From contig JANYJY010000031.1 of assembly GCA_025358295.1 (NCBI GenBank), positions 1-64,000 on the forward strand: DNA of 64,000 nucleotides, in the 5' to 3' direction. A program made the position numbers and the translations under genes. Below, piece by piece: positions 12,098-14,169 of the stretch. How positions within the stretch are numbered: position 1 is the first letter of the stretch; each line of letters opens with the position of its first letter. This DNA is from Gammaproteobacteria bacterium (GTDB taxonomy: Bacteria > Pseudomonadota > Gammaproteobacteria > Steroidobacterales > Steroidobacteraceae). The notes below the pieces were generated by a model, which was not told the DNA's origin, made no database searches, and worked only from the letters and a program-made list of their open reading frames with translations.

Positions 12098-12163
12098 ATG
12101 ACGAAGATTGACGGGACGGTCACGCCGGTGCAGCCAACCCGGGTACCGAGCGCCCGTACTTGA
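12098..12163 (+). CDS. 21-residue leader ORF overlapping the TTG start of the TGT fusion gene
   Basis: ATG at 12098 has a strong ribosome binding site (AAAGGGG at 12085-12091). It opens a 21-codon frame whose TGA (12161-12163) overlaps the TTG start of the next gene by two bases. The peptide ([10 protein letters not shown]...) resembles nothing I know. It may act by translational coupling, delivering ribosomes to a weak TTG start. Alternatively it may be the true N terminus of the transglycosylase separated by a one-base error or frameshift. The sequence alone does not decide. Confidence 0.4.
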
Positions 12164-14169
12164 GCCGGCTGGATTTCAAATTGGAGGCCACGGCCTCCGG
12201 ATCGCGTGCTCGTGCCGCATGTTTTACCACGCGCCATAACGAAGTGTTGACGCCGACCTTCATGCCCGTGGGCACGCACGCGGCGGTCCGCTCGCAGCGC
12301 CGTGAGGATCTTCTCAGCTGCGGAGCCCAGGTGTTGCTCGCCAACACCTATCACCTGCTATTGAGGCCCGGTGTCGATATATTCGAGAAATTCGGCGGAA
12401 TTCATGGCTTCATGAATTGGCCGCGATCGGTGTTGACGGACTCGGGCGGATTTCAAATCTTCTCCCTGCCGGGAAGCCGAACCATGCGCGAGGAGTACGC
12501 GGAGTTCACCAGCTATGTCGACAAGACCCTGGTGCGCTTGAGCCCCGAGCGGAGCATCGAGACTCAGAAAATCATCGGCTCGGACATCATGATGGTGCTC
12601 GATCACTGCGTGCCGTCGACTGTGGAACATGATGTTGCCCGAGAGGCGATGGAGCTGACCCATCGTTGGGCGCAGCGCAGCCTTATCGCGCGCGGCGATT
12701 CCAATCAGGCCTTGTTCGGCATCGTGCAGGGCGCCAGTTACGAGGACCTGCGGGTTGAGAGCGCTCATGCCATCACCGACATGCCCTTCGACGGCTATGC
12801 CATCGGCGGCCTTGCGGTCGGAGAAAGCAGCGCACAGCGCGAGGACTGTACCGCGACAGTCACTGAGTTGCTGCCGCATGACCGACCCCGCTATCTGATG
12901 GGAGTCGGCACGACCCGCGATCTGCTCGAGGCCGTGCATCGGGGCGTCGACATGTTCGATTGCATTCTGCCGACCTCGCTCGCCCGGCAGGGCGTTGCAT
13001 TCACGAGCCAGGGAAGACGGGATCTGAGGCGCGCCGCGTATCGCGACATGGAGGGTCCGATCGACCCGGCATGCGATTGCTACACGTGCAAGACCTACTC
13101 CATTGCGTACCTCTTTCATCTGCGGCGAGTGCATGAAAGTACGGGCTGGCAGCTCCTGGCCCTTCACAATGTGTATTTCTACATGCGGCTGATGCGCACC
13201 ATGCGTGAACACATAATGGCGGATACATGGATGACGTTTTACAGCGCCCAGCGTCATTTGCTCGATGCGCGCGACAGCTATGGCAAGGCGGCCACGCATG
13301 TAACGAAGGCGACGCGCCGCCAGCTGCAGCGCAAGCGTGGGCGCTTTGAGATCGTGGTGCGGGACGATGTCGGCTTTATAAAGGACACCGGGTCGGGCGA
13401 GGTCATGCACCCCATCAGCGATCCAGCGCTGGAGGCGCGTTCGTTATATGTAGAACAGTCGCGGCTCATCGAGCGTTTGCGCGCTCCCGTAAGCGAGCCG
13501 CTGGTCGTTTGGGACGTGGGGCTGGGCGCCGCCGCCAACGCCATGGCTGCCATCCTCGCTGTCGAGGGTTCGGGTATCCCACCGGGCGGTCGGCAGCTGA
13601 GCCTGGTGAGTTTCGAGAATGACCTGGATTCGCTTAAGCTGGCACTGGATCACGTGGGATGGTTCAAGCACCTGCGCCACGCAGCACCACGAGCTCTGTT
13701 GTCCGATAACCGCTGGTCAAATGTCGCATCGACAATCGAATGGTTGCTGCTAACGGGCGACTTCGCCGTCAGAAAATTCGACGCTGCGTTGCCCGATATT
13801 ATTTTCTTCGATCCGTTCTCGTTCAAGACCGACGGCGCATTGTGGACTCTGCCGGCGTTTCGAGAACTTGCCCTGGTGTGCAGGCAAAAGCCGGTCGAGG
13901 TGTTCACCTACACCTATTCCACCAGCGTTCGAGCCGCCATGCTGGCCGCGGGCTTTTATGTTGCCAAGGGCCGCGCCACCGGCGCCAAGTCCGAGACCAC
14001 CATCGGGCTTTCGCCCGCGGCTGCGATGGCGCCCCATGGTCGTGAATTGCTCGGGGCCGAATGGCTGGCCAAATGGCGGCGTAGCGATGCACAGGCGCCG
14101 TTCGGGAGCGACGCGGACGATGCCTCCTGGCACGATGCCGTGTCCCGACATCCACAGTTCCTTATCTAG
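12160..14169 (+). CDS. tRNA-guanine transglycosylase fused to an MnmC-like SAM-dependent methyltransferase domain
   Basis: The 669-residue protein has two domains. Residues 1-380 are a bacterial-type TGT, which swaps G34 for a 7-deazaguanine base in tRNA. It has the base-binding Asp94 in [27 protein letters not shown], the nucleophile Asp267 in DMFDC, and zinc ligands CDCYTC plus a later His. Residues about 420-645 resemble the methyltransferase half of MnmC, with SAM-loop-like [14 protein letters not shown] (from 449), [11 protein letters not shown] (from 546) and [17 protein letters not shown]. The anticodon-recognition motif PTRSGRNG of classical TGT is altered to PTSLARQG, losing the first Arg. 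The only usable in-frame start is TTG at 12160. A canonical TGT is about 375 residues and has no such tail. Confidence 0.85.

Follow-up and report, generated by a model that had tools for sequence, protein, structure and literature searches.

The 64,000-nucleotide stretch analyzed here (the window; positions 1 to 64,000 of contig JANYJY010000031.1, assembly GCA_025358295.1, from a member of the Steroidobacteraceae) carries an open reading frame (ORF) in which a complete tRNA-guanine transglycosylase (TGT) is joined to an S-adenosylmethionine (SAM) dependent methyltransferase resembling that of the tRNA-modifying enzyme MnmC. A first-pass annotation made from the letters alone had described this architecture for a forward-strand gene of 669 residues and had suggested that the protein makes an N-methylated form of preQ1 (7-aminomethyl-7-deazaguanine); Pfam and NCBIfam matches bear out the fusion, and the positions of its domains and key residues are collected in Table 1. 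As far as the open-licence literature reaches, a second TGT equipped with an intact-looking MnmC2-like methyltransferase is undescribed: searches there for TGT-MnmC fusions, methylated preQ1 and TGT paralogues returned no description of the fusion, and a prior account elsewhere is possible. Its product is possibly a new tRNA nucleoside.

The fusion protein scores 431 bits against the NCBIfam model Q_tRNA_tgt (TIGR00430), above the cut-off of 306.75, and Foldseek places its TGT half on bacterial TGTs with a target TM (template modelling) score of 0.96 for 2ash and a TM score of 0.94 for 1q2r. The C-terminal half passes the Pfam cut-off of 22 for Methyltransf_30 (PF05430) with 42.2 bits over residues 517-617, and reaches 54.8 bits over residues 413-616 against the NCBIfam model tRNA_MNMC2 (NF033855), short of its equivalog cut-off of 136. 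The MnmC-type profile match expected by the first-pass annotation is therefore present, but it spans about residues 413-617 and not 420-650 as proposed, and the likeness holds for the MnmC2 methyltransferase half and not for the half of MnmC that binds flavin adenine dinucleotide (FAD). No FAD domain (MnmC1) was found in the Pfam and NCBIfam scans of the fusion protein, whose match to the bifunctional MnmC model is confined to the MnmC2 part of that model (positions 19-227 of 645).

A PDB search with a profile of the methyltransferase half returned, up to an E-value of 1, only MnmC2 or MnmC chains, representing five sequences (3vyw with 7e-17, 2qy6 with 1e-11, and 3awi among them), and Foldseek with the AlphaFold model of this half likewise ranked 3vyw and 2qy6, Aquifex MnmC2 and E. 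coli MnmC, best. The half alone was modelled by AlphaFold with a predicted local distance difference test (pLDDT) score of 96.0 and a predicted TM score (pTM) of 0.93. For the whole fusion protein the values are 91.4 and 0.64, which is compatible with a loosely fixed arrangement of the domains. With a G+C content of 0.612 against 0.609 for the window, a foreign composition of the gene is not seen. No tRNA genes lie within the window. At the residue of its TTG start codon, 7 of the 11 other family members whose start region was printed have ATG or GTG, and the remaining 4 lack a start codon exactly there.

Table 1. Features of the fusion gene, in window positions; counts refer to the 84 aligned fused proteins and the 55 comparison TGTs described in the text.
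Feature	Position	Strand	Evidence or remark
Fusion coding sequence, 669 residues	12160..14169 (stop included)	+	TTG start; purifying selection
TGT catalytic domain, residues 16-362	12205..13245	+	Pfam PF01702, 451.5 bits; genome search; Foldseek
Asp94 (Z. mobilis Asp102)	12439..12441	+	D in 84/84 fused and 55/55 other TGTs
Asp267 (Z. mobilis Asp280), nucleophile	12958..12960	+	D in 84/84 fused and 55/55 other TGTs
Anticodon-facing motif P271-T-S-L-A-R-Q-G278	12970..12993	+	changed from PTRxxRNG
Zinc motif C305-x-C307-x-x-C310 (CDCYTC)	13072..13089	+	cysteines in 84/84; H336 at 13165-13167
MnmC2-like SAM methyltransferase domain, residues 413-617	13396..14010	+	Pfam, NCBIfam, PDB profile, Foldseek
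SAM-binding loop D452-V-G-L-G-A-A-A-N460	13513..13539	+	D452, G454, L455, G456, N460 invariant in 84/84
Glu486 (E. coli MnmC Glu101, SAM ribose)	13615..13617	+	alignment; invariant in 84/84
Asp551 (E. coli MnmC Asp178, proposed base for the amine)	13810..13812	+	alignment; invariant in 84/84
C-terminal extension of the methyltransferase family	14011..14166	+	W635, W639, R641, S642 and HPQF end, nearly invariant in 84 rows

Extent and history of the fusion family

A scan of genome contigs confirmed 582 loci, of which the best 80 were kept and align across almost the whole query; more exist, and not all 582 need be fusions. Among 112 loci, 88 contain full-length fused ORFs, 23 a TGT only and 1 a fragment. 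Some of the 88 are the same gene fetched twice, so that 84 distinct fused proteins were aligned, which are 51-84% identical to the window protein. By their labels, the contigs belong to Pseudomonadota, Verrucomicrobiota, Bdellovibrionota and Spirochaetota, plus a few further groups, with record titles naming Gammaproteobacteria, Bdellovibrionales/Oligoflexia, Verrucomicrobia, Leptospirales/Spirochaetia, deltaproteobacteria and Candidatus Eisenbacteria; most carriers are metagenome bins, in which labels may be mistaken, and a named carrier genome is that of Chthoniobacter flavus Ellin428 (Verrucomicrobia). Two loci labelled Candidatus Eisenbacteria (L005 and L007) encode fusions 74-75% identical to the window's that group with those from Gammaproteobacteria, a placement pointing to either misbinned contigs or a transfer between phyla.

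That two adjacent genes were joined into this ORF by an assembly error or a frameshift has a practically negligible probability in view of the 88 full-length single-frame ORFs, and of the full-length frames in two genomes (G179 and G365) on a contig about as long as the genome. A chance fusion is ruled out by the same full-length homologues: the fusion is a real, old and widespread family and no artefact. In a TGT tree of 28 of the 84 fused TGT halves, 32 TGTs of carriers and 8 of the 23 relatives' TGTs, the fused halves fall on one side of a single branch (100/100; 100% of 200 bootstrap trees), with a long-branch warning among the non-fused rows. The fused methyltransferase halves (42 of the 84 rows) also form one clade (99/99), whose nearest neighbours are two stand-alone proteins that join with 82/75 only. 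One TGT group together with one methyltransferase clade indicates that the linkage was kept across phyla. Both halves are under purifying selection, with ratios of nonsynonymous to synonymous substitution rates (dN/dS) against four homologues of 0.05-0.08 for the TGT and 0.10-0.23 for the methyltransferase half, which are rough because dS, at 1.2-1.7, is near saturation.

The distribution is patchy. Among 288 Verrucomicrobiota genomes, the centre genome G089 included, the complete fusion is present in 12, and 3 more have a form whose methyltransferase is decayed; a fusion split between contigs may have escaped detection in this sample. In a set of 60 genomes that includes the window's own, the 8 carriers all belong to the window's genus. 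In the three decayed forms (L193, L194 and L195, from G278, G290 and G281) the methyltransferase half is shortened, with Glu486 replaced by Thr and Asp551 lost, and the TGT residues are intact.

Active sites and the anticodon-facing motif

Residues of the TGT half were numbered via an alignment to Z. mobilis TGT (1ozm) and compared with 55 other TGTs, of which 32 come from carrier genomes and 23, including the separate TGT of the window's own genome, from relatives. Identical in all 84 fused proteins are D94, D148, C150, Q190, G216, G217, L218, A219, V220, E222, M247, G248, D267, C305, C307, C310 and H336. Asp94 presumably has a nucleobase-binding or catalytic acid role, and C150, V220 and E222 we take to mark a preQ1-type pocket, with C150 and V220 as the presumed setting for preQ1 against queuine; positions C150 and V220 are sites engineered in TGT according to PDB titles such as C158V and V233G. 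The first-pass annotation had correctly located Asp94, Asp267, the zinc motif CDCYTC (residues 305-310) and the sequence PTSLARQG (residues 271-278).

It had also pointed out that the latter, the anticodon-reading motif, is altered, and this change proves to be family-wide in the 84 aligned proteins, whereas the motif is kept in the 32 other TGTs of the carrier genomes. Position 273 is Arg in 55/55 other TGTs and in none of the 84 fused ones (Q 53, A 15, S 10, K 4, M 1, E 1), and position 276 is Arg in 55/55 against 3/84 (Q 71, K 7, R 3, T 1, A 1, G 1); N277 is also replaced in fused TGTs, and N291 is exchanged for Arg in 84/84. In a TGT-RNA structure of 2003, the motif arginines (286 and 289 of the Z. 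mobilis enzyme) reportedly contact the bases beside G34. No statement on such contacts was found in the open-licence papers examined, PMC13416341 and PMC12313893 among them. The U33-G34-U35 context is the main specificity determinant according to parts of a study on human TGT (PMC8136771). Loss of both motif arginines across the fused family points to an altered reading of this context, and it is the natural reading of the alignment that the fused TGT would not recognize U33-G34-U35 in the usual way.

In the methyltransferase half (METHYLTRANSFERASE), E414 stands at the position of E. coli MnmC Asp26 (83 E and 1 D of 84) and K610 at that of Lys236 (79 K, 4 R and 1 L of 84). For the E. coli enzyme, excerpts of PMC3648344 describe Glu101 as binding the SAM ribose and Asp178 as the likely base for the amine of 5-aminomethyluridine (nm5U), with Asp26 near the Asp178 site and Lys236 listed as RNA binding. 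Conservation of the equivalents E486, D551, E414 and K610 argues that the amine-methylating site is kept. The C-terminal extension falls outside the Pfam and MnmC2 matches. The first-pass interpretation is supported in that each half appears catalytically intact, with a TGT pocket like that of a bacterial preQ1 TGT and with the residues by which MnmC2 handles its aminomethyl group retained. A catalytically dead methyltransferase, which would have spoken against that interpretation, is ruled out for the 84 aligned members by catalytic residues invariant in 84/84, and is true for the decayed forms in 3 of the 15 Verrucomicrobiota carriers.

Queuosine and MnmC genes of the carriers

The normal tgt and queA, whose presence in the genome the first-pass annotation had raised as a question, are both found: a second tgt lies 89 kb further along the same contig, adjoining queA, and queF is present too. 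A separate TGT gene occurs in 39 of 40 carriers (the copy of G067 being cut by the contig end; only G087 has the fusion alone), which indicates that the fusion is an added function. QueA was detected in 39/39 carriers (G017 left out), in a few as pieces, and QueF with more than 90 bits in 31/39.

An MnmC-type protein is encoded in addition to the fusion in 7 of 38 carriers (G017 and G087 left out), with 112-134 bits, in six frames of 631-677 residues and one of 350, and its catalytic Glu and Asp are intact in 7/7. Methylation of nm5U is probably covered in these carriers, so a simple replacement of MnmC is ruled out as an explanation for the whole family. The window's own genome has no Methyltransf_30 match besides the fusion, and in a set of 60 genomes, 8 of them carriers with the window's included, the best match in the 52 in which no fusion was found is 26.6 bits. 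The window's lineage thus as a rule does without MnmC2, and as no MnmC was found in it, the fusion could fill that role locally.

Some carriers also encode stand-alone relatives of the methyltransferase half, with frames of 273-387 residues, in class A (L133, L140), class B (L132, L137, L121, L129, L134, L139) and class C (L141, L136, L142, L138, L135, L131). Counted together with L120, they keep the catalytic Asp in 15/15, and the SAM-ribose Glu is replaced by Asp in 4/15; of the fourteen in the three classes, seven were scanned, and all seven remain below the MnmC2 cut-off. One stand-alone relative, at 7766-8472 of L157 (genome G086), is split into two adjoining frames.

A possible second wobble-guanine system

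According to the accepted view, bacterial TGT inserts preQ1 solely into tRNAs with GUN anticodons, all of them headed for queuosine, QueA uses the preQ1 amine, and MnmC2 converts nm5U34 to 5-methylaminomethyluridine (mnm5U34). Against this background, we propose with a confidence that falls just short of an even chance that the fusion is a dedicated second TGT that inserts preQ1 at G34 of an altered set of tRNAs, with the methyltransferase half N-methylating its aminomethyl group. From the residues conserved and changed, we infer that the TGT half would swap the wobble guanine of a tRNA for preQ1 in an anticodon loop unlike the GUN set that the cell's ordinary Tgt recognizes. The MnmC2-like half would then move a methyl group from SAM to the aminomethyl nitrogen, giving 7-(methylamino)methyl-7-deazaguanosine in what would be the 7-deazaguanine counterpart of the step from nm5U34 to mnm5U34. 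The methylated amine would be a poor substrate for QueA, so that the base would stay short of queuosine and the N-methyl-preQ1 mark would be kept separate from it. QueA, which all examined carriers possess, would otherwise be a competitor for this amine, and that would give a rationale for fusing both steps. In favour of the proposal we also count that human TGT accepts N-alkylated preQ1 analogues, as reported in parts of PMC8136771. The methyl-preQ1 chemistry suggested by the first-pass annotation appears to be the most economical explanation of these sequence features.

In a bolder form, parts of at least four phyla would possess a second wobble-guanine system, with N-methyl-preQ1 marking G34 in tRNAs that do not belong to the GUN (Tyr/His/Asn/Asp) set, methylation capping the base against QueA, and two 7-deazaguanine marks coexisting on different tRNAs of one cell; taken as a whole we consider this on balance unlikely. 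If the proposed insertion and methylation are right, the accepted picture of TGT would be incomplete, as a second branch would lead to a new methylated 7-deazaguanine on other tRNAs, the decoding of other codons would be altered, and the preQ1 and nm5U pathways would be joined via aminomethyl methylation at the wobble base. It would also mean that a protein can score as Tgt, as the fusion does by passing the Q_tRNA_tgt cut-off, without necessarily being an ordinary queuosine enzyme.

Several results weigh against the proposed insertion and methylation of preQ1. The missed MnmC2 equivalog cut-off means that the substrate of the methyltransferase half may differ, and the window protein, which has S273, is itself one of the 3/84 that keep R276. 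A convincing QueF is absent from 8/39 carriers (weak in G086; none in G061, G065, G066, G068, G082, G087 and G090), gaps that may be explained by draft assembly, which applies to most of these genomes, or by preQ1 salvage in some. The separate TGTs of the carriers (L161-L192) have the zinc cysteines C305 and C307 in 28/32 each and C310 in 29/32, with Leu at position 150 in 2/32 and Trp at 219 in two, and given these odd zinc and pocket residues not every one of them need be an ordinary queuosine TGT. Decay of the methyltransferase in 3/15 Verrucomicrobiota carriers implies that methylation is dispensable there, and stand-alone methyltransferase relatives without a TGT partner occur in 12/38 carriers; together, both indicate that the two activities are separable, which weakens a strictly coupled model. 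The neighbour survey gave no pathway support: the widest conserved cluster around the fusion recurs at 5/81 loci, as seen with a crude ORF caller prone to wrong frames in G+C-rich DNA, and nothing beyond the fusion gene is common to window positions 1-30000 and the homologue locus L003. Among 13 stretches around stand-alone methyltransferase relatives, 3 share a few housekeeping-like neighbours, with nothing recognized that points to tRNA modification.

Other readings of the same features have to be considered. The methyltransferase half might perform classical MnmC2 work, converting nm5U34 to mnm5U34 on NNA/NNG-decoding tRNAs, with the TGT linked for shared tRNA handling. The half has the fold and the catalytic residues of MnmC2, and without any other Methyltransf_30 match in the window's genome, or a match above 26.6 bits in the fusion-lacking genomes of the set of 60, it could fill this role in the lineage. 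Yet an additional MnmC-type protein whose catalytic residues are intact occurs in seven of the 38 carriers, the 52 fusion-lacking genomes do without an MnmC-strength match as well, and the change of the TGT motif is left unexplained, so we hold this to be improbable. Methylation could alternatively yield another 7-deazaguanine, if free preQ1 were methylated before insertion, if another position were the target, or if a later queuosine intermediate on GUN tRNAs were the substrate. The presence of QueA in 39/39 carriers and the own C-terminal extension of a methyltransferase family that lies far from MnmC2 in the tree would fit, but D551 and E414, matching the amine-activating site of MnmC2, are kept and the altered motif speaks against the same GUN tRNAs, which leaves such products clearly unlikely. 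It appears quite improbable that only the TGT half is new, placing unmethylated preQ1 into other tRNAs with the methyltransferase half mainly as an RNA-binding platform: the three Verrucomicrobiota carriers that keep the TGT next to a decayed methyltransferase agree with it, whereas SAM-binding and catalytic residues invariant in 84/84 and the dN/dS of 0.10-0.23 do not.

The TGT half shares with bacterial Tgt (TIGR00430/PF01702) the whole catalytic domain, nucleophile, pocket and zinc site, along with a score above the NCBIfam cut-off, and differs from it as a second copy with both motif arginines changed across the family, a C-terminal methyltransferase and a separate group in the tree. With MnmC2/MnmD (NF033855, PF05430) the C-terminal half has in common the fold, the SAM site and the equivalents of Glu101, Asp178 and Lys236, in contrast to its score below the equivalog cut-off, the missing FAD half, the extra C-terminal segment, the fusion to a TGT and a clade of its own with stand-alone relatives. 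As a nucleobase, N-methyl-preQ1 is not new in itself: Cui et al. (2023) reportedly described it in phage DNA (mdPreQ1), where an unrelated enzyme, DpdM, makes it. The fold of DpdM is unrelated to that of the MnmC2-like half. The fusion would resemble the DpdA/phage system in coupling a transglycosylase to 7-deazaguanine side-chain chemistry with the same predicted base. DpdA modifies DNA (excerpt of PMC6884629). The TGT half of the fusion, by contrast, shares about 43-50% identity with the TGTs found in relatives, and in a PDB search with the fusion, TGT chains reached E-values down to 2.3e-100 versus 0.44 for the DNA-guanine transglycosylase chain, so DNA modification is unlikely. Matches were found in 20 phage records, none covering 80% of the query and, among the 15 listed, none reaching beyond residue 371; viral contigs, searched with patterns drawn from the TGT half, yielded a single match, to a TGT alone, and plasmids, searched with the methyltransferase half only, none. 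A 2020 review of natural ribonucleosides heads the corresponding group with preQ0, preQ1, oQ, Q, GalQ, ManQ, GluQ and G+, and N-methyl-preQ1 is not named in the excerpt available (PMC7694415).

Two minor observations concern the surroundings of the gene. A leader ORF of 21 codons (window 12098-12163), with the purine-rich stretch AAGAAAGGGG upstream of its ATG, ends in a TGA that overlaps the TTG start of the fusion gene, so that translation of the two could be coupled. At window 19080-22136, further frames resemble, by their sequence, pqqB, pqqC, pqqD and pqqE.

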